The position numbers were made by a program, and so were the translations under genes. A model generated the notes under the pieces. The model did not search any database. It saw only the letters and a list, made by a program, of their open reading frames with translations, and had not been told where the DNA came from. From IMG/VR virus record IMGVR_UViG_3300047409_000184, positions 1-28,160 of that record: a stretch of 28,160 nucleotides of DNA. The stretch is one strand, 5' to 3'. The DNA is from a virus. Below are positions 1-16,491 of this stretch, one piece after another (the first letter of the stretch is position 1; each line of letters begins with the position of its first letter).

Positions 1-229
1 CGGGATCGTAGGAACCAAACAACGCCTCGACGATCGGGAAAAACCACGGCCCGCAGACCTCCCCCATCGTCGGCGTGCCGATCACGTCCGGCAGCCGCAG
101 CCGCTTGAACACCCGCAACGCCTTCGCCGCCTCGGCCTTGAACAGCGGCAATTCCGGCACCAGCGAGCGGCCGGACAGGATGCGCTCTTCCCAGTCTGGA
201 ACCGCCGTGTCCCAGGACCGCGTCAGCAT
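1..229 (-). CDS. terL: Phage terminase large subunit, N-terminal part (cut by window edge)
   Basis: This is the start of the packaging motor protein that cuts concatemeric phage DNA and pumps it into the prohead. Only about 76 residues are in the window; the ATPase and nuclease domains lie beyond base 1. The visible part reads MLTRSWDTAVPDWEERIL, then SGRSLVPELPLF, and a later LPDVIGTPTMGEVCG. This opening (W.TA.PDWE..I..GRSLVPELPLF..EA..AL..F..L.LPDV.G.PT) is typical of large terminases in alphaproteobacterial siphoviruses. The ATG at 229 is the only start after an in-frame TGA seven codons upstream. The gene is downstream of the small terminase and in the same direction, but an opposite-strand gene (320-823) sits between them. 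The family call rests on recalled sequence style. Confidence 0.85.
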   Translation of the reverse strand, partial: MLTRSWDTAVPDWEERILSGRSLVPELPLFKAEAAKALRVFKRLRLPDVIGTPTMGEVCGPWFFPIVEALFGSYDP

Positions 230-319: not shown

Positions 320-823
320 ATGTTCAAGACAATCGTGACCATCTGGGGCGCCGTCATCGTAGTGGGCGGGATCGCTATTGGCACCTCAACCCTTAACTCG
401 AGGTCGGCGCCCAGCTCGCCCGTGACCATCTCAGCGCCGGCAGCGCCAGTGCATCAGACGCCCATTCGCCTCGCCTACGACGAAGTCGCGCGCTACCCCG
501 AGCGCCACATTGGCAAGGCCGTTGTATTTACTGGCAAGGTCCTGCAGGTGCTCAACGAAGGCAGCAGCGTGCTTATGCGCGTGGTCGTAACCCAGGACAC
601 GCGCGGCTCGTGGATTTACGAGAATATCGTTCTGCTCAGGTATCGCGACCCATTGAAAAGCGATGGGCGCGTTCTTGAGAATGACATCGTCGAGTTCCGC
701 GGCATATTCAAAGGCACCCAAAACTACACGGCTATATTTGGCCAAAGCATCGGTAAACCGAGTGTCACGGCTTGCGATGTTCTTGTGATCAGCAATCCAC
801 GCGCGCCGCGGGACTGCACGTAG
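320..823 (+). CDS. Membrane-anchored OB-fold-like protein, probable phage moron
   Basis: Function unknown. Residues about 5-24 form one hydrophobic segment (TIVTIWGAVIVVGGIAIG), so the product is probably an inner-membrane-anchored or exported protein with the remaining roughly 140 residues in the periplasm. The body contains YPERHIGKAVVFTGKVLQVL, an alternation of beta strands (around 58-150) seen in small OB-fold domains of the type SPEKYKGKKVKFTGKV. A GGAGAAG ribosome site precedes the ATG. It lies on the strand opposite both terminase genes, ends 3 bp from the end of the small terminase and starts 90 bp from the large terminase start. An independent gene inserted in a packaging operon is typical of morons expressed in the lysogen, for example for superinfection exclusion; this role is inference. 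Confidence 0.7.
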   Translation: MFKTIVTIWGAVIVVGGIAIGTSTLNSRSAPSSPVTISAPAAPVHQTPIRLAYDEVARYPERHIGKAVVFTGKVLQVLNEGSSVLMRVVVTQDTRGSWIYENIVLLRYRDPLKSDGRVLENDIVEFRGIFKGTQNYTAIFGQSIGKPSVTACDVLVISNPRAPRDCT

Positions 824-826
824 CAT

Positions 827-1225
827 TCAATTCGCCCGGCCGTCGAACTCCAGGTCGCTGGCCCACTCGGTCGCCGCGCCCGCCGTCGCCGCGGCCTGCT
901 GCTGCAGTTCCTTCTTGCCGAATTGATGCTGATCATCCCACGGCTTTGGCTCGACCCAGCCGGCCCGGCACTTGAGCCAGAAGATGCACGCGGTCACGGC
1001 GCCCTGGCCGTTGCCCATCGCCTTTTTGTAGAGGCTTTGCGCCACCATCGAATTCGCTTGGATGTGGCCGGTCTCCAATTCATACGGATACCACTTAGCC
1101 ACAGTCGGCGCCGAGACGCCGATCACCCGCGCAATATCCACCAACGGCACGCCATAGCTCGCCATCGCTTCCACTTGCTTGCGACCCTGCTCGGTCGGCT
1201 CGTGCGGTTTCCTGCCAGCTTTCAT
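827..1225 (-). CDS. terS: Putative terminase small subunit (helix-turn-helix)
   Basis: This 132-residue protein has an N-terminal helix-turn-helix: GVPLVDIARVIGVSAPTVAKWY at about 25-46, followed by YELETGHIQANSMVAQSLYKKA and a middle part rich in W and K. Small terminase subunits use such an N-terminal HTH to bind the packaging site (cos or pac) and load the large subunit. The pattern HTH > 'ANS.VAQSLYKKA' > 'IFWLKCRAGW' is familiar from proteins beside terminases of Rhizobiales prophages, where they are often left as hypothetical. The ATG overlaps the TGA of the glycosyltransferase (ATGA), so the start is well supported. A simple HTH regulator is the main alternative; the position just before terL favours TerS. 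Confidence 0.7.
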   Translation of the reverse strand: MKAGRKPHEPTEQGRKQVEAMASYGVPLVDIARVIGVSAPTVAKWYPYELETGHIQANSMVAQSLYKKAMGNGQGAVTACIFWLKCRAGWVEPKPWDDQHQFGKKELQQQAAATAGAATEWASDLEFDGRAN

Positions 1226-2100
1226 GCGACGGCCTCCAGTGGCTCATTTCGGAGATACATGCCGTAATTGTCGGCCTCGTCGGCAATGTTGAGGTCACGG
1301 CGTAAGAGTTTGTTTTTGCGAAATTGACTATAGTCGACGTGATGATGCCAGCGCCCGAACCGCCACGCTAATTTTGCAACATCAGGGTGAGCTTTGACAA
1401 TCATCCGCGACTTTGGAAGCGTACCTTCGCTCGCATAAAACGCATCGGTATTGCCTCCTTTGATTGTCTGCGTCGGCAATTTGTATTGTAGGAATGCGTT
1501 GAACAGAATCGTACACCAGCCGGCCTTGAGCATCCGAAGCGATAGATCGACATCCTCGTTGTAACGGCAACGCCAACGAAAGCGAGTATCGTTGCGAATA
1601 AGGTTGCAGCTATAGATACGGGTATTTAGAACGAACGGCGGCATTTGTGACTTGCGCGACGCAAACATAAAGTAATTGGGACCAGCCATCGCGATGTTTT
1701 TGTATCGGAGAACAAAGTCCTCCATGCAGCGAAAGATCGTCCCGTCCGCAACCGGCACCTTGAGGTTATGATTGAGCCGGAAAAAGCCCCTGATGTTGTC
1801 GTCGACGATCCAGTGCCACGGTGCGCCTTGGGCAGCGGCGTGATCCCATGCGAAGTTACGCGCTGGACCCGAGCCCTTGCTGGCAGTGGAAGGAAACTCG
1901 CCGAACATGTCGTATTGGTCCTGGTATGCGCGATCGAGGACGAGCAGCCTGCTCGAATCGATAACCCTCGCGTAATCGCAAAATTCCTGTTCCTCAACGA
2001 TAACGCGGTAAGGAACCCTTAGCGCGTCCAAGTATCGAACCGTAATTCGACTCTCGGCGCGACCCTTGGACGGAATGTAGATAGGAAATTGCGGGTTCAT
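1222..2100 (-). CDS. TET-associated-type glycosyltransferase (putative DNA-modifying enzyme)
   Basis: The 292-residue product matches, by eye, the TET-associated glycosyltransferase family of phages, proposed to put sugars on hydroxymethylated pyrimidines in DNA. Key features are IYIPSKGR near the N-terminus (7-14), GPARNFAWDH (78-87), WIVDDNI with a DD pair at 100-101 (the DxD-like nucleotide-sugar and metal site), GTIF...EDFV (120-130), PPFVLNTRIYSCNLI (154-168), YNEDVDLSL (180-188) and KGGNTD further on. All appear intact and in family order. The start at 2100 is chosen because its ATG overlaps the TGA of the ParB-like gene; an upstream in-frame start would run 23 codons into that gene. 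It ends in an ATGA overlap with terS. No TET/JBP dioxygenase or nucleotide hydroxymethylase is in the window, so the acceptor base is unknown. Confidence 0.85.
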   Translation of the reverse strand: MNPQFPIYIPSKGRAESRITVRYLDALRVPYRVIVEEQEFCDYARVIDSSRLLVLDRAYQDQYDMFGEFPSTASKGSGPARNFAWDHAAAQGAPWHWIVDDNIRGFFRLNHNLKVPVADGTIFRCMEDFVLRYKNIAMAGPNYFMFASRKSQMPPFVLNTRIYSCNLIRNDTRFRWRCRYNEDVDLSLRMLKAGWCTILFNAFLQYKLPTQTIKGGNTDAFYASEGTLPKSRMIVKAHPDVAKLAWRFGRWHHHVDYSQFRKNKLLRRDLNIADEADNYGMYLRNEPLEAVA

Positions 2101-2780
2101 GTCGGCGGCGGTGCAGCCGTCGTATACTGCTTGTCGACGTAGCGCTCGATCTCGGCCTGTGGATACCAAACAAACCGGGTTTTAGGCGTGATCCGCTGAC
2201 CGATAAGGTTCGCGAAGAGGTCGACGGCTTCGGCGTCCTTGAAGTGGACGACGATCGTCTTGAAAGCGGCGGCGTTGTTCTGCTGAAACTCCGGCATCCC
2301 GACCCATTCCTCAAACGGATCGTTGACGCCCTCGGAGCCGAACAGCTCAATGGCGGCCAATTGCGCGTCATCAAACCCGATCACCCCGAGGTCAAACCCC
2401 AGGCCCTGCAGCTCGCCGAGCTCGAGCTTCAACAGTTCCGGGTTCCATCCGGCATTCAACGCCAGTTGATTGTCAGCCAGGACATAGGCTCGCTTCTGCG
2501 CCTCGCTCCAGCCGGCCGCGATGATCACCGGCACCTCGGCCAGACCCAGCTTCGTCGCCGCCAAGACCCGGCAATGACCGGCTATGATCCCGCCGGCCTC
2601 GTCCACCAGAACCGGGTTGGTCCAGCCCCATTCCCGGATCGACGCCGCGACCTGGTCAACCTGCTCGTCGGTATGGGTTCGCGCATTGCGTGCATACGGA
2701 ACCAGCCGGTCGAGCGCCCACCGCTCGACCTTGTCGGCCGGCCAGCGGGGTAGAATTTTCTTCTTCTGCGGCTTTGGCAA
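2097..2780 (-). CDS. ParB/Srx-like nuclease domain protein
   Basis: This 227-residue protein has a ParB N-terminal (ParB/sulfiredoxin fold) domain at about 20-90: LVPYARNARTHTDEQVDQVA, ASIREWGWTNPVLVDEAGG and IIAGHCRVLAATKLGLAEVPVI. The usual GHGR motif is GHCR here. The C-terminal half (FEEWVGMPEFQQNN..., then KTIVVHFKDAEAV and PKTRFVWYP) resembles the second domain of phage ParB-like proteins found next to DNA methylases and base-modification enzymes. It is followed directly by the glycosyltransferase (ATGA overlap), so a role in DNA modification or target choice is more likely than plasmid partition; no ParA is present. The start is TTG: no ATG or GTG lies between the upstream in-frame stop and this codon. 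Confidence 0.85.
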   Translation of the reverse strand: MPKPQKKKILPRWPADKVERWALDRLVPYARNARTHTDEQVDQVAASIREWGWTNPVLVDEAGGIIAGHCRVLAATKLGLAEVPVIIAAGWSEAQKRAYVLADNQLALNAGWNPELLKLELGELQGLGFDLGVIGFDDAQLAAIELFGSEGVNDPFEEWVGMPEFQQNNAAAFKTIVVHFKDAEAVDLFANLIGQRITPKTRFVWYPQAEIERYVDKQYTTAAPPPT

Positions 2781-2922
2781 AATGGCTAAATCCCTTTTTT
2801 ACCAAAAAATAATGCGGGAATTGCTAAAAGGGGCGGATATCATTTTGGGACCTGTTTATTTGAATCCTCCCCCCCCTTGATTGAGGAGGAGAATAATTTT
2901 CCCCTAGCAGAACTTTCTTCTC
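2781..2922 (-). promoter_or_regulatory. AT-rich gap upstream of the ParB-glycosyltransferase-terminase operon
   Basis: This 142-bp gap is clearly more AT-rich than its surroundings and separates the HNH-kinase gene from the ParB operon, so it is the likely place for a promoter reading leftwards. A short inverted repeat (TCCTCC / GGAGGA, about 2865-2890) with a run of C could be a weak hairpin behind the kinase gene; no U tract follows it on the minus strand. I could not find a convincing -35/-10 pair. Confidence 0.35.
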
Positions 2923-3735
2923 TCATCGCGCAGCCATCTCGCGCATCATCCATTGATCGACCCATTGCAACTGCAAGTCGCATATCCGTTTGCGCTCGGG
3001 ATCGCCCATGATCCTGCGCTGTAGCTCGGCCAAGGGTGGTACTAGCACCACCAGGTCCTCGGCCTGCACACCCAGGGCATTGCACCACCACTGCCGTACC
3101 TTCTGCCCTGGAGCACCAACGATCACCCATGCGGTACGCTGGGCAGGCTCATGTGCAAGGGCAGCAAGCATGGCGTTGCGTTCCTGCAACAGTACGTTAG
3201 TTATATACTCTGGCCTATTGCGGCCATACCCATAACCCCTTGCGATAACATCGAGATCAATGACTATGTCAGTAGTGCTGGCGTTATCCCGCACATAGGT
3301 AGACTTCCCTGATGCGGGTGGGCCACAGACCAGAACAACCCTGCACCCTGGCCTTGGCAGGGATGGGCGCGTGTAACTACCAGACCAGGCCGCAGTCCTT
3401 AACTGCCTGGCCTTAAATGTCTTTCTCTCGTGGTGTACCGCACACAGGCACTGCCCATTCCACACATCGAACGGGTGTCCACCATCACGTAATTCGATGA
3501 CGTGGTCGGCGTACATGCGATGGGCTGGGTGTGCCTTCCGGCACCTTTCCCCATCCTCGATATGCTCGCACCGATTCCCTGCCCTGAACACGACCTGGGC
3601 GCGCCAGGCCCGAAAGGCCGGCGTGTTGTAGATTGCATCCGGCCGCTTTTGCGGTGCCTGGATAGTCCGCGTGCTGAGAGTGCGGAACAGCGGGGCCAAA
3701 CGCCGAACCTTGGCCGGCCGTAGACCCATCGCCAT
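2923..3735 (-). CDS. HNH nuclease fused to P-loop (AAA/PNK-like) kinase
   Basis: The 270-residue product has two domains. The N-terminal part (about 33-112) is an HNH endonuclease: C56 and C65, then ADHVIELRDGG with D77-H78, N93 and LCAVHHERKT with H101-H102. The C-terminal part (132-270) is a P-loop NTPase: VVLVCGPPASGKST (Walker A, 138-146), a DLD that could be the catalytic or substrate acidic site, AWVIVGAP, and a basic lid DPERKR. The second domain is like polynucleotide-kinase and zeta-toxin kinases, including kinases of phage base hypermodification; end processing is an equally good guess. The start at 3735 (ATG-GCG-ATG) is chosen because upstream sequence in this frame overlaps the neighbour gene and is not protein-like; 3729 is the alternative. 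Confidence 0.8.
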   Translation of the reverse strand: MAMGLRPAKVRRLAPLFRTLSTRTIQAPQKRPDAIYNTPAFRAWRAQVVFRAGNRCEHIEDGERCRKAHPAHRMYADHVIELRDGGHPFDVWNGQCLCAVHHERKTFKARQLRTAAWSGSYTRPSLPRPGCRVVLVCGPPASGKSTYVRDNASTTDIVIDLDVIARGYGYGRNRPEYITNVLLQERNAMLAALAHEPAQRTAWVIVGAPGQKVRQWWCNALGVQAEDLVVLVPPLAELQRRIMGDPERKRICDLQLQWVDQWMMREMAAR

Positions 3736-4929: not shown

Positions 4930-6861
4930 CTCCGCATTTTCGGCCGCGTGTGGTTCGGAATTACCACCGGCAGGGACGAAACAGGCCCGCGGCTTGCGAT
5001 CCTTGTCAGTCCGCTGTTCCTTGCCGATGACCCCATTTCGCACCCAGGTTGTCAGCACGGCGTTTATCCACTTGATGTTGCCGAGCTCGGTGACGCTGCG
5101 GCCAAACCGCTCAGCGAGTTCGTGCCCGAGCCAATCCGGCGAGCGACTGTCGGCGCGGTAGGTTTTTATACGCACCAGCTCGCGCACCCAGTCGGCATCG
5201 GCGAGCGAAATCTTGCCGAAGACCTTTGGAAACTCCCAAGGCTCGATCACGCCGACATTGTCGCCGTTGGCGATCTCGACCGACGCAAGATGAAGCCAGC
5301 GCGCCTTGTCGGGCGGCGCCATGTTGCTCTTGCCGCTGTCGATGCGCAGATAGAATGCCCGCTTGTCGCGCTCGATCTCGGCCTGTTCGGCTTCGATCGT
5401 GCTCATGATGTTGATCACCCGGCACGACCTAACTGCATTGACAATCGCGCCGGCGCCGCGGGCATCGTCGACCGTGATCTCGCCCTGTCCGCTCGGCCGC
5501 TTGCGGACATGGTGAGGCAGTTCGATGCACATGCTCTGCCGCGTGCAGATATCGCCGAGGCGCTTGATCAGCGCGTCCATGGCAGCGGTGTCGTTTTCGG
5601 GGAGATAATGGAAACTGATGAACGGATCGAAGATTGCAACGTCAATCTTGTGGCAAGCAATAACCGCTTCGAAGGCGTCGAGCTTAGCGTCGTCGAACAG
5701 CACGCCGCCGCCGCGCCCAGTCCGCGCGATCTTGAACGGGAATGAGAGTTTGTCATCGACGAAAAAGCGATCCTGTAGCTGGGCCGGCAGAATGCCGTGG
5801 CGTTGCACATAGGCGGCGATGCGTCGATCAAGTTCGGTGCGATCGTCCTCCGCGCTGATGTACCAGACGCAGAATCCATCCTTGATGATCTCGAGCGCCT
5901 CATAGATTGAGAGCGACGTCTTACCGTACCCACCTGGCGCGACCGTCGAGGCGACAATGCCGCGCATGTAATGGTGGAACTTAATCCATGCGCGCCGCGC
6001 CAGCGTTGCCGGGTCAGGCAACACATACGGCGTGGCAACAACGAGAGGCGGCGCATCTGCGCCGTGATGGTCTTTGCCGTTAGGTTTTCCAAACCCGTTG
6101 AGCTTGCTGATTTGATCGAGTGCCGGCAATTGCTCGACCATTGGCCAAAGCTGTTCGGCGGTGCCGCCCTGCTCGGCCCAGTCGCTGATATCGTCGCTAG
6201 GCTCGATCTTCGGCCAATACCGCGCGAGATCGAACAGCCTCACACGCTTGGCAACCGGGATAAGATTTTCGGCAACCATGCGGCCATGTTCATGGCCAGG
6301 CTCGTCGTTGTCGATACAAATGACAACATCCGCGCCCTTCAACAGCTCGTTGAATTCAGCCCACCATTTCTTGGCGCCCATCGGATTGCAGGTCGCGACA
6401 ATGCCGAGGCGCTGCAGTGTCAGAACATCCTTTTCGCCCTCGCAAACGAAGACTGTCTGATCGTTTGCGACCGCTTCCATCACCTCGGGCAGATGAAACG
6501 GCACAATGCGCACGCCTTTGATCGACCACCTTTCCTGATCTGGGCCGGTGCGCTGGCGAAATTCCTTCGGGCTGTTAATCGGCTCGAACCTTAATACCTG
6601 AAACAGCAGCTTTCCGTTTTCGTCGGTGTAATCATAGATAGCTTTGATCGGCCCGAGCTCGCCTGCTTTGCCCTGTTCAAATTTCTCACCGCTGCCTTCC
6701 TGGCAGGATTGGCAAAACCATACGACGCCGTCGTTTTTGATTTCGACGCTGAGATAATTATCCGAGCAGTTTGGACATTTAGTGGTGAACTTACCCTTGC
6801 GGGTTTCGACATAGGTAATTCTATGTCGCTGCAATAATTCCTGTGCAGAGAAAACCGCCAT
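4915..6861 (-). CDS. Phage primase-helicase (zinc finger, TOPRIM, RecA/RepA-like ATPase)
   Basis: This 648-residue replication protein has, in order, a zinc finger with C29-C32 and C50-C53 (CPNC, CQSC); a TOPRIM region, TVFVCEGEKDVLTLQRLGI with NPMGAKKW and DVVICIDNDEPG (about 135-215), whose Glu and D-x-D are the usual metal-binding acids; and a RepA-type hexameric-helicase-like ATPase with Walker A APGGYGKTSL (about 305-315), a DRTELDRRI segment, Walker B IDVAIFDPFISFH and PHHVRKRPSGQG. A C-terminal winged-helix-like tail follows. It should unwind DNA at the fork and make primers, as do combined primase-helicases such as T7 gp4, although the ATPase is of RepA type. It follows the HNH gene by 6 bp, and the iteron cluster begins inside its 3' end. 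Confidence 0.88.
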   Translation of the reverse strand: MAVFSAQELLQRHRITYVETRKGKFTTKCPNCSDNYLSVEIKNDGVVWFCQSCQEGSGEKFEQGKAGELGPIKAIYDYTDENGKLLFQVLRFEPINSPKEFRQRTGPDQERWSIKGVRIVPFHLPEVMEAVANDQTVFVCEGEKDVLTLQRLGIVATCNPMGAKKWWAEFNELLKGADVVICIDNDEPGHEHGRMVAENLIPVAKRVRLFDLARYWPKIEPSDDISDWAEQGGTAEQLWPMVEQLPALDQISKLNGFGKPNGKDHHGADAPPLVVATPYVLPDPATLARRAWIKFHHYMRGIVASTVAPGGYGKTSLSIYEALEIIKDGFCVWYISAEDDRTELDRRIAAYVQRHGILPAQLQDRFFVDDKLSFPFKIARTGRGGGVLFDDAKLDAFEAVIACHKIDVAIFDPFISFHYLPENDTAAMDALIKRLGDICTRQSMCIELPHHVRKRPSGQGEITVDDARGAGAIVNAVRSCRVINIMSTIEAEQAEIERDKRAFYLRIDSGKSNMAPPDKARWLHLASVEIANGDNVGVIEPWEFPKVFGKISLADADWVRELVRIKTYRADSRSPDWLGHELAERFGRSVTELGNIKWINAVLTTWVRNGVIGKEQRTDKDRKPRACFVPAGGNSEPHAAENAECASD

Positions 6862-6867
6862 AAGCTG

Positions 6868-7341
6868 TTACTCTTCGGAGTGAAGCTGTTCATGGCAACA
6901 TTGGCAGATTGCGACAAGCTCGAACAATGGCTCGTTAAATTGGTGCTTATAGCTTAGATGGTGGACTTGCGTGGCATAGATCGAACATCCATCTAGCCTG
7001 GCCTGACAGCGACGATTGTCGCGCGCGAACACCAGTTCACGCTTGCGTTGCCATTCGGGACTTTCGAGATATTCGTTATAGCGCTCCCACCACTGCTCCT
7101 GCTCAACCTCTCGGCGGCGTACCGTTTGCTGATAACGCTCCCGGTATGCCTCATTCTGCTGGTCCCATTGGCGCTGCCGTGCAGTTTCATCGAATGGCGG
7201 CGCATCCTTGGGCGCTTCAGAATGTTTGACGGCGGACCCGACGACCTGGAAGCAGTCGAGACATTGCCGCCAGTAGGCGACGACGCCATTCGACTGAACG
7301 CGCCGCCGTATTTCGGATCGGGGGTGCGCGCAATCGCTCAT
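6868..7341 (-). CDS. HNH endonuclease
   Basis: The 157-residue protein begins with a possible Cys/His metal site (C4, H6, and C27-C30 in YWRQCLDC), continues with a charged Gln/Glu/Arg-rich helix (about 50-100) and ends with an HNH domain: LVFARDNRRCQARLDGC, TQVHHLSYKHQFNEPLFELVAICQCCHEQLH, with H127-H128, N136, C147-C149-type ligands and H150/H154. Such nucleases are common in phage replication and packaging modules; whether this one nicks phage, host or competitor DNA cannot be read from the sequence. The start at 7341 is set by an ATGA overlap with the gene before it; the longer open frame is out-of-frame coding of that gene. Confidence 0.82.
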   Translation of the reverse strand: MSDCAHPRSEIRRRVQSNGVVAYWRQCLDCFQVVGSAVKHSEAPKDAPPFDETARQRQWDQQNEAYRERYQQTVRRREVEQEQWWERYNEYLESPEWQRKRELVFARDNRRCQARLDGCSIYATQVHHLSYKHQFNEPLFELVAICQCCHEQLHSEE

Positions 7342-7529
7342 ATCAGCCGACCCTTTTCGGCCATTGCCTGATAGTCCTTGACGATGCTTTCCATACAGGC
7401 GATTTCGTGTGCGGCTTTGCCGGCGGACATGCGCCCATCCGCAACCCACCGCTCATAGACATGCGTGCGCATTTTCAATTCGCGCTCGGCGCAAGCGAGC
7501 TTGTCGGCATTGGTGATGATATCGGTCAT
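7338..7529 (-). CDS. Small conserved phage protein, unknown function
   Basis: This 63-residue protein, MTDIITNADKLACAERELKM, continues RTHVYERWVADGRMSAGKA and a helical end with AMAEKGRLI. It is predicted almost all helical and charged, with no catalytic motif. The pattern REL.MR..VY.RWV..G.MS..KA..EI..M..I..DY is recurrent in early regions of alphaproteobacterial phages. It is locked by ATGA overlaps to the VRR-NUC gene before it and the HNH gene after it, which supports the chosen start and translation of all three. Confidence 0.65.
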   Translation of the reverse strand: MTDIITNADKLACAERELKMRTHVYERWVADGRMSAGKAAHEIACMESIVKDYQAMAEKGRLI

Positions 7530-7969
7530 TGCACCTTCACCCTGTCCATCAGCGCACCCCATTGTTTGAGTATCTTCACCGCCGCGTCATAGGTATCGCA
7601 AACCTCGTGCGGGCAGCCGTTGAGCCTACACCAGAGCGCGAAGCCCGCTTGATGCTCGGTGAGTTTCCCGCCGCGGCGCTTCATCTCGAGGAAATGAGGG
7701 CGCAAACACCAGTCGTTATTCTCCAACGGCGGAATGAGCAGCAGATCCGGCCACCCTGGCTGCACGCCCATCCGCTTGAGCCGCGCACCAGTCACGGCAT
7801 CCCGGCGTTCGCCCATTGGCAGGTGCGTCCAAATCCATCCCGGCGTTGCCCATCGGCGCAGCGTATCGGCGACCATGCAGTGCACGGCGAACTCGAGCGG
7901 CGCCGGCGCCGCAGTCCCGCGCTGCCGCTTCGAGCGGAAAAGATGGAGCTGCCGCACGTTGCTGGTCAT
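7526..7969 (-). CDS. VRR-NUC domain nuclease
   Basis: The 147-residue protein has the core of the VRR-NUC (PD-D/ExK) fold: GVQPGWPDLLLI with D75, HFLEMKRRGGKLTEHQAGF with E95-x-K97 and Q107, then LNGCPHEVCDTYDAAVKIL. Stand-alone phage VRR-NUC proteins are thought to resolve branched DNA during replication and recombination, which fits its place in the early operon and the presence of YqaJ/RecT genes across the control region. The ATG at 7969 overlaps the TGA of the winged-helix gene (ATGA); the ATG at 7975 would add two residues. Confidence 0.88.
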   Translation of the reverse strand: MTSNVRQLHLFRSKRQRGTAAPAPLEFAVHCMVADTLRRWATPGWIWTHLPMGERRDAVTGARLKRMGVQPGWPDLLLIPPLENNDWCLRPHFLEMKRRGGKLTEHQAGFALWCRLNGCPHEVCDTYDAAVKILKQWGALMDRVKVQ

Positions 7970-8256
7970 CGGCATGGTCTCGCCTTGCGCAGGAACCAGC
8001 GCCGCCGGTCGGACACGATCGAATAGTCGGTCTCGACCAGCAACTCATTGATCTGCCACATGTGGACCTTGACGGTATTCGCCTTGGGCGGCACGCGCTC
8101 GACGTAGAGCTCGCGCATGAGCTCCTCGGTGCTGATGCCCTCGTCGCCGGCGCGCTTGACCAGGTCGAACATCGAAGCCTTGAGCGGCGGCAGCCGAATT
8201 CCGACGCGCTGAAGGCGGATCGGCTGCCCGCAGGACCGACAAAGTTCCGCGGGCAT
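7966..8256 (-). CDS. Winged-helix DNA-binding protein with Cys motif
   Basis: This 96-residue protein begins with LCRSCGQPI, a short zinc-knuckle-like pair, then RVGIRLPPLKASMFDLVKRA and a winged helix (about 25-92): GDEGISTEELMRELYVERVP, NTVKVHMWQINELLVETDYS, IVSDRRRWFLRK, where the last strands are the wing. Its first position in the leftward early operon and its DNA-binding fold suggest an early regulator or a replication accessory factor; no direct evidence decides. It is preceded by a 21-codon ORF ending 3 bp upstream. Confidence 0.75.
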   Translation of the reverse strand: MPAELCRSCGQPIRLQRVGIRLPPLKASMFDLVKRAGDEGISTEELMRELYVERVPPKANTVKVHMWQINELLVETDYSIVSDRRRWFLRKARPCR

Positions 8257-8259
8257 TCT

Positions 8260-8325
8260 TTAGGCCAACGCTTCCAGAAGTTTTCGGTCATAACCATTGG
8301 TGACTTGCTTGGACTTTCTGGCCAT
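8260..8325 (-). CDS. Possible 21-codon peptide at head of early operon
   Basis: The frame MARKSKQVTNGYDRKLLEAL ends after 21 residues, 3 bp before the winged-helix ATG. A GGAAAGG ribosome site lies at good distance from the ATG at 8325. The winged-helix gene itself has only a poor ribosome site, so coupled translation is likely. Peptide function is unknown; it may be a leader or a decayed gene end. Confidence 0.4.
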   Translation of the reverse strand: MARKSKQVTNGYDRKLLEALA

Positions 8326-8778
8326 GGCAAAGCCTTTCCGTTGCCGGGGTAAAAACCGCGCAAAAGTTCGTTAGATGCTGTCGCTGGTTAGAGGGTAAAG
8401 GTTGCCACAGGCCGAATTGGCCGGGAAGTGAGCGACTTTTTACCTCTTCCGGTTTCCGGAAATCAGGTTTCCGCTTTTGCGCACATCCATGAATTGCGAT
8501 GCTTTGCGCAACCCCTTTCATGCTCGCTGCAAAATCCATTTACATGCGCGCGGCAATACCACCGCGAAAATAAATCCGTCAAAATTTGATCTTGCCGGCC
8601 GCGGATTTTTCCCTTTACAAATTCAAACCAAGACAAACGGAAACTTCACGGAACTCAACAAGACAATTCCCCGAGATCGAACCCTGGCAGTGCCGCACAC
8701 GCCAGGCACGGCCGGCCGCCGCGCTCACTGTCGCCCACTCCGGTGGGTGCGGCGGCCCGGTATAGGAGGTTTCCTGAA
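8326..8778. promoter_or_regulatory. Divergent early control region
   Basis: No gene is credible in these 450 bp between the two divergent early operons. The stretch about 8560-8660 is AT-rich. Repeats seen: the palindrome TTTCCGGAAA (8453-8462), GGTTTCCG twice (8451-8458 and 8466-8473), GCTTTTGCGCA (8473-8483) with GCTTTGCGCAA (8501-8511), and GTTAGA twice (near 8370 and 8387). These are candidate operators for a phage repressor. I could not name -35/-10 boxes with confidence. At 8764-8770 AGGAGGT is the ribosome site of the YqaJ gene. Confidence 0.5.
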
Positions 8779-9561
8779 ATGCTGTCCCCCGCCCAAATTG
8801 AAGCACGCAAAGGCCGGCTGACGGCGTCGCGAGTGGCATGCCTGATGACGGGCGATGCCGAGAAAATCCTGCGGCTATATCGCGAAATGATCGGCGAGGC
8901 CGTCGAGGAGGATCTGTCCGATGTGTGGGCAGTGCAGCTCGGTGCCGCAACCGAAGGTGTGAATCTCGATTTTTATGAACTGCGGCGCAACCCATTATCC
9001 CGGCGCGGCGCCGTCGTCGTTCATCCGCGCCATGATTGGGCGGCAGCAACGATCGACGCATGGGACGACACGCTTGCCTGCCCGGTCGAGGCCAAGCACG
9101 TCGGCGGACGCGAGCCGCTCGAGGTCATCGTCGACCGCTACCAGCCGCAGATGCAATGGCAGATGGAAGTCACCACGGCCAATCAATGCGGCCTCTCGGT
9201 CATCATGGGCGCCAGTCCGCCAATCGTGGAATACATTGAGCGCGATCCCGACTATGCCGCCGAGATGATTCATCGTGGCGCGCAATTCATGGAATGTGTC
9301 GCCCGCCGGATCATGCCGGTGCATCTCGCTCCCGTCGCGGGGCCGGTCGTCGTCTCCAAGGACTATGACATGTCCGGCAACAATCACTGGGCGAGCGCGG
9401 CTGCGACCTGGCTTATGACCAAACTCGCCGCGCGCGACCACAACGAGGCCGAAAAAGACCTCAAGGCGATCGTGCCGGACGATGCCAGGAAGGTCACCGG
9501 CTATGGCGTGTCGATAACGAGAGATCGGGCCGGCCGCCTCAGTCTTAGGGAAATCGCATGA
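8779..9561 (+). CDS. YqaJ-like viral recombinase (5'-3' exonuclease)
   Basis: The 260-residue protein is a lambda-exonuclease-type nuclease of the YqaJ family. Visible motifs are ARKGRLTASRVACLMTG at the start (9-25), E59 in LGAATEG, D93 in TIDAWDD, the E104-x-K106 pair in CPVEAKH, and YQPQMQWQME (121-130), the Q-rich motif of the family. It should resect double-stranded ends to give 3' single strands for the annealing protein two genes downstream. The ATG at 8779 has an excellent AGGAGGT ribosome site 8 bp upstream, so the longer ORF start at 8743 is rejected. This is the first gene of the rightward operon; its end overlaps the next gene (ATGA). Confidence 0.88.
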   Translation: MLSPAQIEARKGRLTASRVACLMTGDAEKILRLYREMIGEAVEEDLSDVWAVQLGAATEGVNLDFYELRRNPLSRRGAVVVHPRHDWAAATIDAWDDTLACPVEAKHVGGREPLEVIVDRYQPQMQWQMEVTTANQCGLSVIMGASPPIVEYIERDPDYAAEMIHRGAQFMECVARRIMPVHLAPVAGPVVVSKDYDMSGNNHWASAAATWLMTKLAARDHNEAEKDLKAIVPDDARKVTGYGVSITRDRAGRLSLREIA

Positions 9562-13971: not shown

Positions 13972-14056
13972 CATCAATAGACAAAATCCAGCGGGAAGAT
14001 CGGCATGGAAAAAAATATACGTTTGGATAAGTGGCGTCGCCTATCGGCAATTGACG

Positions 14057-14077
14057 AGCCGTCCAAAACGGTTTTTT
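14057..14077 (+). terminator. Weak intrinsic terminator or attenuator
   Basis: AGCCGT and ACGGTT pair around a CCAAA loop (14057-14073, with one G-U pair), followed by a T run (14072-14077). It lies in the leader between the candidate promoter and the repressor-like ATG at 14170, so it may attenuate that gene. The stem is short. Confidence 0.35.
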
Positions 14078-14169
14078 CTGTCAGGAAGCCATCAGAAAAG
14101 AAACGTCACCGCCCAGAGGCAAAAACAAGGAGATCGCACCAAAAATCCCAAGAGAACCACGAGGCCCAA

Positions 14170-14403
14170 ATGGCAAGCCTAGGTCAAAGGCTGCAGGCTA
14201 TTCGTCGCGCAAACAACATCACCCAAGCCAAACTCGCCAAGATGGCGGGCGTCACTGACCGGCAGGTTCGGAACTGGGAAGACGGGACCAGCGATCCGCA
14301 TGGTCGGCTGCCCGAGATCGCCGCCGCACTCGGCGTCACCGAAATCGACATCCTGGACATCGACGGCCCGATCCCGCCACCACGCAACCATAGAGGCGGG
14401 TGA
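14170..14403 (+). CDS. Cro/CI-type (XRE) repressor-like protein
   Basis: The 77-residue protein has an XRE HTH (about 3-60): MASLGQRLQAIRRANNITQA, KLAKMAGVTDRQVRNWEDG, LPEIAAALGVTEIDILD. It lacks a C-terminal peptidase or dimer domain, so it is more Cro-like, or the shorter type of phage repressor. I chose ATG 14170 (GAGG upstream); ATG 14005 would add 55 low-complexity, basic residues but would put the candidate terminator inside the gene. It is followed at 14407 by a small gene. Targets are probably the repeats in the divergent early region; this is inference. Confidence 0.75.
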   Translation: MASLGQRLQAIRRANNITQAKLAKMAGVTDRQVRNWEDGTSDPHGRLPEIAAALGVTEIDILDIDGPIPPPRNHRGG

Positions 14404-14406
14404 CCA

Positions 14407-14643
14407 ATGAGGGCGTGCGGCGATCAGACGGCGGAATTCAGCGTCTATTGGTTCGATCCGCAGGATTTTTCGCATGCGCAATTGTGCGGCGTCGACGCGA
14501 AGACTGCCGTCGAAATGGCGCGCGATCTGACCTTGCGACCGGCGGCGCAAATCGGAATCATACGCCGTGTGATCATCACGGACGGCGGCGACAATACCTG
14601 CTTTGAGTGGAAGTATCTCGAAGGCATCACGTTCGGCACATAA
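14407..14643 (+). CDS. Small conserved protein, unknown function
   Basis: The 78-residue protein begins MRACGDQTAEFSVYWFDPQD and contains HAQLCGVDAKTAVEMARDL and VIITDGGDNTCFEWKYLEGI. The C-terminal motif DGGDNTCFEWK.. is familiar from small proteins in Rhizobiales prophages and suggests a beta-rich end. Function unknown. It starts 3 bp after the repressor-like gene and ends 1 bp before the oppositely directed membrane protein gene; convergent and tight. Confidence 0.65.
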   Translation: MRACGDQTAEFSVYWFDPQDFSHAQLCGVDAKTAVEMARDLTLRPAAQIGIIRRVIITDGGDNTCFEWKYLEGITFGT

Positions 14644-14644
14644 C

Positions 14645-14923
14645 TCACGGCTTCGGCTTGTTCAGCTCGCGGGTCATGATGTCGACAATCCGTTCGAGCC
14701 GCTCCTTGTTTTCCCTGGTCTGGCTCTCCAGCACGGTGAGCCTGCCGTCAATCTTCTCCAGATGCGGCGACCCGCGCACCTCCAATGTATTGACGCGCGT
14801 CTCGAGCCGCACCGAATAAGCCACGATGCTGATCACCGCGGCGCCGATGGCGATGGCCTGCGCAACAAGAAAATAAACGAGCGTCTGGTTCTCCGAGAAC
14901 CAGGACCGCACGCTCGTCATCAT
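14645..14923 (-). CDS. Small membrane protein with coiled coil, lysis-region (holin/spanin-like)
   Basis: The 92-residue protein has one transmembrane helix (about 15-37: VYFLVAQAIAIGAAVISIVA) and then a charged heptad-like region (RLETRVNTLEVRGS, KIDGRLTVLESQTRENKERL) ending in a basic, Pro-rich tail. This topology occurs in phage lysis clusters as an accessory membrane protein, DUF-type holin-like protein or inner-membrane spanin. It is the last gene of the late operon, directly after the endolysin (TGATG overlap). Holin identity is not shown; one helix would fit a class III holin or a spanin. Confidence 0.6.
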   Translation of the reverse strand: MMTSVRSWFSENQTLVYFLVAQAIAIGAAVISIVAYSVRLETRVNTLEVRGSPHLEKIDGRLTVLESQTRENKERLERIVDIMTRELNKPKP

Positions 14924-15864
14924 GGCCGACGATACGGAAAGATAACCTCGACCTCGTCATCGGTTTTGAGGCCGAGGTCGGCCAGCAGGCCAGGGCTGAG
15001 ATCAGCGACCCGGCCGGTATTCTCGTTCGGCCCCCAGTCGGCCGGGAATGCCGTCAGCTCGATGCCGCCCGCGCGCACCAGCGCGAGCTCCTCGCGCATC
15101 ATCGCCTTCGGCGTCACGGCGTAGTCCCACCGGCAGGCCACATAGTGAACGTGCTGATTTAGTCTCCGCGCCAGGCCGGTCGTCCCTTCCGGCTGATACG
15201 GCAGGAACAGATGCGGCGCCTGCTCGACCTCGGAAATGAATGCCAAACCTTCGCTCGGCGATACGCCGGTGTCGTCCGGCCCGCCGAAATGCGAGCACTT
15301 GCCACTGACCTTGAACAGCGGCGCCGGCGCCTCGGCGATACCTTCCAACGGCTCCCCGCCGAGCTCGTCGGCGATGGCCGTGCAAATCTCATAGAACTGC
15401 GCCTCGTAGAGCTTGGCGTCGGCCTCGCTGTCGACGAAACAGATCTCGAGCAGAATCGCCGGCTTCTCGGTGTTGTTGAGAAAGAACAGGTCGGTGGTCC
15501 GCTTCGCGCCGCGGTTGATGAAGCCGCAGGAGGCAATGGCGGCGGACATCTCGGCGGCGAGCGCCTCTTGCGTCACGTACCAGACCTCGGTGCCGACGGG
15601 ACCTTCCCGCTGTTCAAATGCATTGAAGTGGCAACTGATATCGACATCGCGTTCTTGCGCGTTGTGGAAGTTCACGATCGCATTGAGGTTCTCGTTCTGG
15701 CTGCGACTGCTGTTGTCGTGAAACACCATCACGTCGGCGCCCCGGCTCTGCAGCTCCTCCGCAACGCGGTTGACTACCCTGCGAGCCTCGTCGACCTCGT
15801 CGAGGATGCCGCAGGCGCCGCGGACGTAGAGACCGTGGCCCGACGAGATTACAACTTTTTGCAT
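14920..15864 (-). CDS. Endolysin: N-acetylmuramoyl-L-alanine amidase (Amidase_3) with extra C-terminal domain
   Basis: The 314-residue protein has an Amidase_3 zinc amidase domain (about 1-170): SSGHG with H10, DEVDEAR with E23/E26, HFNA with H79 and LLEICFVDS with E140 as catalytic Glu. It cleaves the amide between MurNAc and L-alanine of peptidoglycan. The C-terminal 125 residues ([20 protein letters not shown] and on) are a second domain, rich in beta segments, maybe for wall binding; [14 protein letters not shown] and [11 protein letters not shown] are the clearest marks. No signal peptide, so it needs a holin or the membrane protein downstream. A GAAAGGG ribosome site lies before the ATG. 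Confidence 0.85.
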
Positions 15865-15951
15865 GGTACCCTTTCAGCTAGAATGCGCAGCGGCCGAACG
15901 GTGAGACGTTCAGCCACCACTTCACAAGCAACCTTTCAGAGGAGGTTTGCC

Positions 15952-16491
15952 GTGCGATTCATTGATATCACGGGACATCGATACGCGCGCCTAACCGTCG
16001 TGTGCATGGTAGAACGAAAAAACGGACGGCCGCTGTGGCGTTGCCGTTGCGATTGTGGAAATGAAATTACGATCCTCGCGAATATGCTGCGTCGGGGCAA
16101 TACAAAATCATGTGGCTGCCTTAAACTTGATCGCGTTAGACAATTGGGAAAAACAAATCGGACGCATGGTGAAAGCAAATGCGGCGGGCAGCCATCGCGT
16201 GAGTATCGAGCATGGCGTGGCCTGCGCGAGCGCTGCACAAATCCCCGCAATAAAGATTTTGCCAAATACGGCGGGCGCGGCATTAAAGTTTGCGAACGCT
16301 GGGTAATTAGCTACGAAAATTTTCTTGCTGACATGGGTCGCTGTCCTCCCGGTCACTCGATTGACCGAATTGATAACCACGGGCCTTATGCTCCCGAGAA
16401 TTGTCGCTGGGCTACCTTGAGCGAGCAAAATCAAAACAGACGCCCGCTAAAGCGAAATGACAAAGGAACATTTGTGTCTCGGACGATATGA
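15952..16491 (+). CDS. HNH/AP2-like DNA-binding endonuclease, probable selfish insertion
   Basis: The 179-residue protein has a Cys-rich N-terminal part (about 1-60: [21 protein letters not shown]) and a conserved half, [42 protein letters not shown]-type [29 protein letters not shown]. This is the widespread phage family with zinc-finger plus HNH/AP2-like domain, likely a free-standing homing-type endonuclease. It starts at GTG 15952 with a strong AGAGGAGGT site. It is opposite in direction to all late genes around it and separates the endolysin from the small membrane gene. Repeats at its two ends (15868-15878 and 16494-16503) suggest insertion. Enzyme activity is not proven. Confidence 0.7.

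Follow-up and report, generated by a model that had tools for sequence, protein, structure and literature searches.

The glycosyltransferase (GT) gene of the 28,160-bp virus record analysed here (the whole stretch is called the window below) lies beside a gene for a ParB-like protein, and comparison of related loci shows that the real unit is the GT together with a domain of about 62 residues at the C-terminus of that protein; the partner of the GT is a domain fused to ParB, not ParB as such. This domain, for which the name MPE was coined in this analysis, is a near-obligate partner of the GT, and ParB is its usual carrier. It has the signature W-x-G-M-P-E ... T-x-K-T-R-x-x-W-Y-P and no Pfam, NCBIfam or PADLOC model. 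Our preferred reading, to which we assign a probability of roughly 0.6, is that the pair forms a two-component cassette for the targeted glycosylation of phage DNA, with predicted chemistry and with a hydroxyl-making step that is either absent or not recognised.

The window is a fragment of a temperate phage, as its left edge falls inside terL (Table 1). At both ends of the GT gene the junction is a 4-nt ATGA overlap, and gene overlaps of this kind are typical among the relatives. A preliminary description of this DNA had the ParB-like gene and terS translationally coupled to the GT gene; both overlaps are present, and from them we infer that coupling is likely, in particular between the ParB-like gene and the GT. 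We judge terS to be a recurrent type of neighbour that stands outside the chemistry.

Table 1. Positions of the features of the GT locus in the window
Feature	Position	Strand	Basis
terL start, cut by window end	2..229	-	phrog_7622, E 8e-22
Terminase small subunit (terS); start overlaps GT stop	827..1225	-	phrog_309, E 3e-15
GT/TerS overlap, ATGA	1222..1225	-	Sequence
GT, TAGT family PF20691, predicted GT-A fold, 292 aa, ATG start	1222..2100	-	Pfam, PHROG, motifs, fold matches
ParB/GT overlap (ParB stop, GT start), ATGA	2097..2100	-	Sequence
ParB-like protein, 227 aa, TTG start: predicted ParB-CTPase fold (residues ~17-155) and C-terminal MPE	2097..2780	-	
MPE domain, residues 158-219 of ParB-like protein	2124..2309	-	Own HMM
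HNH endonuclease + AAA_33 P-loop protein	2923..3735	-	PF13671, PHROG matches

The earlier assignment of the GT, with its intact DD and other motifs, to the TAGT family is upheld by the Pfam model PF20691 (136.2 bits against a gathering cut-off of 27.5, E 1.8e-39) and by PHROG 842 (E 3e-46). The window GT has an intact W-IVDDN motif of the DxD type and an intact NED motif of the catalytic-base type, and the DxD-type and ED motifs are kept in 155-157 of 160 loci. Since tBLASTn finds a match of 54% identity (E 1e-91) in Aeromonas phage phiAS5, the GT is a real gene and not a chance open reading frame. No sequence-related solved structure was found, and the structural modelling proposed as a check was carried out on a fused homologue (locus L080). 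The GT part of its AF2 model, mostly with pLDDT above 90, has a GT-A fold matching GTs in the PDB, among them GalNAc-T2 (Z 14.5, 4.6 Å over 230 residues), which supports its reading as a TAGT-family GT-A enzyme. A protein search of plasmids with the window GT and a DNA search of E. coli genomes with the GT of an Erwinia prophage gave no match.

The pairing of MPE and GT holds in both directions. MPE, which scores 101 bits in the window with the HMM built in this analysis, is present in all 75 GT loci that have upstream sequence, and a GT is present in all 79 loci found by starting from MPE; the pair occurs in 148 of 152 non-redundant untruncated loci, and the remaining four include one with a weak MPE. 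The two are also joined in single genes, as MPE-GT fusions (L034, L057, L067, L080, Aeh1, PTm1, Kuja and 1.076.O) and as ParB-MPE-GT fusions (L177 and L217). ParB is dispensable, a point against the proposed cassette: MPE occurs in a locus lacking a ParB domain in 21 of 160 non-redundant loci. The AF2 models show MPE with no assigned strands or as a low-confidence domain, and fold searches barely cover it. The suggested link between ParB and glycosyltransferase therefore extends, through MPE, well beyond one window. That ParB, GT and the upstream HNH-kinase are merely unrelated neighbours is a reading to which the loci without ParB would lend something, and the near-invariant pairing and the fusions leave it a negligible probability; these rule out coincidence for ParB-MPE and the GT, and coincidence still stands for the HNH-kinase, which does appear unrelated.

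The HNH-kinase had been counted among the hypermodification genes, a proposal that we reject as no homologue was found in the first 80 related GT loci. Its gene is not coupled to the ParB-like gene, from which a 142-nt AT-rich spacer separates it. The protein matches PF13671 (E 5e-9), has an HNH part that matches phrog_589, phrog_144 and phrog_333, and also matches phrog_4581, a 'terminase small subunit' family (E 6.5e-28).

The ParB part passes the cut-off of PF02195 (28.2 bits against 26.3), has the G-H-x-R and A-D-N positions conserved, and matches phrog_620 and the methyltransferase-fused phrog_498. Its closest relatives are the N-terminal parts of DNA methyltransferases, such as the ParB part of PADLOC MTase_II (E 3e-37 over residues 12-144), and a Pfam search found no methyltransferase domain in the window protein, whose C-terminus is MPE. 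The AF2 model of the ParB part resembles Noc (7ng0; Z 15.8, 131 residues, 2.5 Å). ParB matches in Psychrobacter Y8A and Pseudoalteromonas SL25 were set aside, as they come with neither MPE nor GT. A second line of evidence is position: the earlier observation that the pair lies directly ahead of terminase recurs in many loci, with terminase genes of different families directly downstream (our own TerL profiles under-count these, at 24 of 94, and a family scan was therefore used). Together with a fusion of the GT to an SNF2 helicase (one case, L029), the ParB relatives and the terminase neighbours link the cassette to DNA. The MPE-GT pairing, the fusions, and a ParB part closest to DNA-methyltransferase fusions in the same pre-terminase slot support DNA glycosylation without proving it.

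A possible course of events can be proposed. The TAGT-family GT-A enzyme would draw on a nucleotide-sugar, which the host probably provides as a UDP-sugar, and ParB-MPE would dock on the GT and bring it to phage DNA, much as ParB domains fused to phage DNA methyltransferases may do. The sugar would be placed on phage DNA ahead of packaging and could shield it from host nucleases. The GT is thus predicted probably to glycosylate phage DNA; DNA is a plausible acceptor, ParB-MPE may serve to target the enzyme, and the phage may gain protection. If a protein were the acceptor instead, be it capsid, terminase or a DNA-binding protein of the host, base hydroxylation would not be needed, the frequent proximity to packaging genes would make sense, and polypeptide GalNAc-transferases and GnT-I are indeed among the closest solved folds. 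We consider this improbable, given that DNA is the target of characterised members of the family (PMC13216743), that the ParB and SNF2 helicase fusions point to DNA, and that the ParB part resembles DNA-methyltransferase fusions.

Other neighbours speak for sugar chemistry. In L017 the GT gene overlaps at its end with a gene for a UDP-glucuronate decarboxylase (UDP-xylose synthase), and some loci have beside the pair an FkbM or class-I methyltransferase, a second TAGT (only separate or tandem matches were counted, as this profile also matches every main GT) or a weak Glyco_transf_9 match. None of FkbM, Methyltransf_23, a second TAGT or GT9 is a universal partner, as each occurs in few loci. 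FkbM- and GT9-type genes also serve surface glycans, and the nearest folds include peptide and glycan GTs; both are points against DNA glycosylation. Lysogenic conversion, in which the GT and its FkbM- or GT9-like neighbours would alter host LPS or capsule, could draw on the UDP-xylose synthase, on the Erwinia prophage with a Methyltransf_23 gene and weak Glyco_transf_9 and MptE-like matches beside the pair, and on the FkbM methyltransferase with a sub-threshold RfbT match in L057. It is nevertheless highly improbable, since the pair is tied to ParB, adjoins terminase genes in many loci and is also found in large phages of other types (Aeh1, Kuja and PTm1), and since no recurrent membrane protein was seen among the neighbour clusters.

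Under the preferred reading of DNA glycosylation, the main difficulty is the acceptor. The absence of a TET dioxygenase or nucleotide hydroxymethylase from the window, itself a fragment, was confirmed by profile searches, which found no thymidylate-synthase-type, TET/JBP, 2OG-FeII_Oxy_6, C5-methyltransferase (PF00145), AGT, BGT or gp42 homologues there. TET/JBP (PF12851) was likewise not found in 45 related records or seven cultured phages with the GT, with the TET phage P12024L as positive control; for gp42, the dCMP hydroxymethylase, PTm1 alone matched, weakly and at 22%, against E 2.8e-172 for the T4 control; and T4 was the sole positive among 22 records for the alpha- and beta-glucosyltransferases (PF11440, PF09198). 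TET, thymidylate-synthase-type, 2OG-FeII_Oxy_6, alpha- and beta-glucosyltransferase and gp42 partners were not found in the MPE-GT records searched, apart from thymidylate synthase in the large cultured phages and a weak second match in PTm1. The near-complete Erwinia prophage showed no recognised hydroxyl-making enzyme (Pfam over the early half; PHROGs, best 25 of 86 families, over the late half), and its host genome gave no TET match in a search where the control gave no signal either. The TET/hydroxymethylase scheme suggested at first thus finds no counterpart in the relatives searched, and with no enzyme recognised for making 5hmC, 5hmU or 5-hydroxyC the usual DNA acceptor is missing.

A hidden first step, in which the base for the GT is one of these three and comes from a phage or host enzyme that belongs to no recognised family or is encoded beyond the sequenced fragments, is possible if doubtful; this is a special case of the preferred reading. 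TAGT relatives in T2 and T6 use such bases (PMC13216743), a TET gene adjoins the distant TAGT of P12024L, the window is a fragment, and a C5 methyltransferase matches in the Erwinia prophage and in 8 of 54 records overall, too few for a universal partner. Set against this, the MPE-GT records searched hold no TET and no convincing gp42 with controls positive, two Vibrio phage records of about 47 kb have no thymidylate-synthase-type or TET genes, and the one such gene in Aeh1 is for a td thymidylate synthase. Somewhat less likely still, the pair might transfer sugar to DNA without a pre-installed hydroxyl, for example to an exocyclic amine or other native group, and MPE would help to determine the acceptor; if so, many small temperate phages would use a short route to sugar-coated DNA. 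Our literature search found no modified-nucleoside measurements for phages with the cassette, nor the base composition of Aeh1, Kuja or PTm1 DNA. The acceptor question is now directly testable in small culturable carriers of MPE-GT, namely prophages of Chryseobacterium daeguense DSM 19388 and Rhodovulum euryhalinum DSM 4868, provided these can be induced, and Vibrio phage 1.124.O.

A 2026 study found 288 of 753 phage genomes to have a TAGT without an alpha- or beta-GT, left the function open and suggested that such 'solitary' TAGTs may be novel transferases (PMC13216743). The GT of the window belongs among them. The main text of that study makes no mention of ParB; from the present analysis one branch of these TAGTs gains an anatomy, with a near-obligate MPE, a usual ParB carrier and a frequent pre-terminase slot, and is set apart from TET and T-even systems. 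The T2/T6 beta-glucosyl-HMC-alpha-glucosyltransferase, described as placing a glucose on DNA hmC that is already glucosylated (PMC13216743), belongs to PF20691 by published assignment, and its DD and ED motifs align with those of the window GT; however, the T2 enzyme is about 12% identical to it and too short for an N-terminal MPE, and T-evens have gp42 and alpha-GT, whereas the MPE-GT phages searched lack both. Nonlabens phage P12024L, a small tailed phage with the order TET, TAGT, N6/N4 methyltransferase, has a TAGT of the same family at 21% identity; its TET adjoins the TAGT, unlike in any MPE-GT record searched. The ParB part shares a predicted ParB-CTPase fold with the CTP-dependent clamps ParB, Noc and KorB, but the window protein falls below the partition cut-off of TIGR00180 (ParB/RepB/Spo0J; 28.6 bits against 58.45) and ends in MPE. 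The closest parallel to the ParB part lies in phage ParB-DNA methyltransferase fusions (phrog_498, PADLOC MTase_II), up to 66% identical there (MW202613); the MW202613 gene occupies the same slot, followed by a small DNA-binding gene, terminase and portal, and the window has MPE and a separate GT, elsewhere fused, in place of the methyltransferase domain. Should the sugar go to DNA, ParB domains would appear to be a general module for delivering phage DNA-modifying enzymes, methyltransferases and glycosyltransferases alike.

All four genes named in the preliminary description of a possible DNA hypermodification locus were found on the minus strand (see the table): a TAGT-type (PF20691) glycosyltransferase (GT) gene, the parB-like gene and terS to which it is coupled, and a gene for an HNH-kinase upstream. 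The GT matches the Pfam TAGT model at 136 bits (cut-off 27.5), and its gene shares an ATGA overlap with each neighbour. The HNH-kinase gene is separated from parB by 142 nt of AT-rich sequence, set in surroundings of 61% GC, that may be an insertion boundary. As no homologue of the HNH-kinase was found in any of the 80 related GT loci, we no longer regard it as a member of the module. The record begins within terL and carries an integrase gene, so it is a fragment, probably of a temperate phage.

Positions of the genes, junctions and loci discussed
Record	Feature	Position	Strand	Remarks
Window	GT, TAGT-type, 292 aa	1222-2100	-	Pfam TAGT and PHROG 842
Window	ParB-like protein, 227 aa	2097-2780	-
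Window	TerS	827-1225	-
Window	HNH-AAA_33 protein (HNH-kinase)	2923-3735	-	matches phrog_4581, annotated 'terminase small subunit' (E 6.5e-28); TerS present separately
Window	ParB/GT junction	2097-2100		ATGA overlap
Window	GT/TerS junction	1222-1225		ATGA overlap
Window	HNH-kinase/ParB spacer	2781-2922		AT-rich
Window	167-aa ORF	320-823	+	hydrophobic signal-like N-terminus; antisense to its neighbours, between terS and the terL start; resembles an inserted accessory gene
Window	HNH-endonuclease ORF	15211-16491	+	phrog_374, residues 235-415; antisense overlap with endolysin gene; true start probably near 15870
Window	Endolysin gene	14920-15864	-
L067	Two successive MPE-GT fusion genes, then a third small MPE-like ORF	6912-9423
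L082	Single ORF: TAGT-like N-terminus (26.9 bits, slightly below cut-off), ParB and MPE	7352-8866		usual GT directly after
L251 (Erwinia prophage)	Methyltransf_23, Glyco_transf_9-like (slightly below cut-off) and weak MptE-like genes	13984-16044	-	upstream of ParB-MPE; possibly a larger sugar-modification cluster
L090 (Nonlabens phage P12024L)	TET dioxygenase, distant TAGT, N6/N4 methyltransferase	5122-7387

A scan with the window GT recovered 80 viral loci of 54-73% identity. A homologue of the ParB protein lies upstream in 75 of them, mostly overlapping or abutting the GT and at times with one gene between, and the remaining five are cut by a contig edge. In several loci the ParB protein is reduced to its C-terminal 62 or so residues, encoded by a small gene of their own or joined in frame to the GT, as in L034, L057, L067 and L080. 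We named this domain MPE after its motif W-x-G-M-P-E; an HMM of it matches all 75 GT loci having upstream sequence, as well as N-terminal GT extensions in Aeromonas phage Aeh1, Tenacibaculum phage PTm1, Vibrio phage 1.076.O and Vibrio phage Kuja, the last with two tandem MPE-GT genes. The link between ParB and GT is therefore general beyond the window, but the true partner is MPE and not ParB itself.

The reciprocal search, begun from the ParB-MPE alignment with a seed pattern within the MPE part, gave 79 further loci with MPE, some on contigs already seen, and the GT was present in all 79. When a typical MPE was compared with 50,697 phage records, matches up to E 1 fell only in GT-carrying records. 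Of 160 non-redundant loci, 148 contain MPE, eight are themselves truncated and four show no clear MPE (one of these has a weak one). The order ParB-MPE then GT holds in 124 of the 160, MPE occurs without ParB in the locus in 21, and ParB-MPE-GT forms a single open frame in L177 and L217; ParB is thus the usual yet dispensable carrier of MPE, and MPE a near-obligate partner of the GT. None of Pfam, NCBIfam and PADLOC gave a match to MPE, and in the window ParB protein the PHROG matches stop by about residue 165.

The L080 fusion protein, modelled from an alignment of 47 rows, contains a confident GT-A domain with blocks mostly above 90 pLDDT. Among solved structures, Foldseek matched it best to GnT-I (E 8e-5) and VIA-align to GalNAc-T2 (Z 14.5, rmsd 4.6 over 230 residues). 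For the ParB protein of the window a ParB-CTPase fold is predicted, which matches Noc 7ng0 at Z 15.8 and 2.5 A over 131 residues. The MPE part of these models shows either no assigned strands or a domain of low confidence. In L017 a gene for UDP-glucuronate decarboxylase (UDP-xylose synthase), whose product matches solved enzymes at E 3e-124, overlaps the GT gene at its end, and in three loci a cytidylyltransferase-like gene adjoins the GT. A minority of loci carry, beside the MPE-GT pair, methyltransferases of the FkbM or class-I type, an additional TAGT (on its own or in tandem within one protein) or a weak Glyco_transf_9 match. These neighbours suggest further elaboration of the sugar, though the same gene types also serve surface glycans.

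Several lines of evidence suggest DNA as the likely acceptor. The T2/T6 member of the family is reported to add glucose to glucosylated hmC in DNA (PMC13216743). The window ParB is closest to the N-terminal ParB domains of phage DNA methyltransferases (identity up to 66%), and in MW202613 a ParB-methyltransferase fusion occupies the same slot, directly ahead of a small DNA-binding gene, terminase and portal. A survey of 104 non-redundant loci took the longest ORF that begins within about 450 nt past the GT; this ORF often matched TerL of differing families (phrog_2 in 32, phrog_9 in 17, phrog_15 in 7) or TerS (phrog_83 and phrog_309, five each). In L029, a metagenomic locus, the GT is fused to an SNF2-type helicase. 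We put the probability that the cassette performs DNA glycosylation at about 0.58. With the genes, motifs, pairing, fusions and gene slot of the cassette established, we propose that ParB-MPE would dock the GT through MPE and so carry it to DNA, that the ParB part may act as an NTP-dependent clamp or loader, and that the GT would move a sugar from a host nucleotide-sugar onto DNA shortly before or during packaging, presumably for protection.

To our knowledge, glycosylated phage bases all rest on a hydroxyl installed beforehand. A hidden hydroxyl-making step, which would be a version of DNA glycosylation and not an independent rival, seems to us less likely than not. Searches for TET/JBP found nothing in the window, in related records or in seven cultured relatives (the P12024L control matches). 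In 20 MPE-GT records neither AGT nor BGT was found, nor gp42 beyond a weak 22% match in PTm1 (the T4 controls match). No gene of the thymidylate-synthase type turned up in 46 viral records or in two Vibrio phages of about 47 kb; large cultured phages usually have one, annotated as thymidylate synthase in Aeh1 and Kuja. The prophage of Erwinia sp. OLFS4 spans about 47 kb from integrase to tail genes; neither an oxygenase nor a thymidylate synthase appeared in a Pfam scan of its early half or among the PHROG matches listed for its late half. TET had no match in nine bacterial genomes with such prophages, in a search where the control was also silent. Hydroxylases of an unrecognised type are possible.

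Systems already described include TAGTs, solitary TAGTs and fusions of ParB to methyltransferases. The main text of a survey of ParB fusions contains no mention of glycosyltransferases (PMC12704722), and ParB-domain genes have been noted near CmoX in work on carboxymethylcytosine, where their role was not known (PMC12783734). The literature searched appears to contain no description of the MPE domain, of its near-obligate partnership with this branch of GTs or of ParB-MPE-GT fusions. The window GT has the DD and ED motifs in common with the TAGTs of T2 and P12024L, while overall identity is just 12% and 21%, respectively, and the P12024L cassette, in which the TAGT stands between a TET dioxygenase and a methyltransferase, contrasts with the arrangement in the window.
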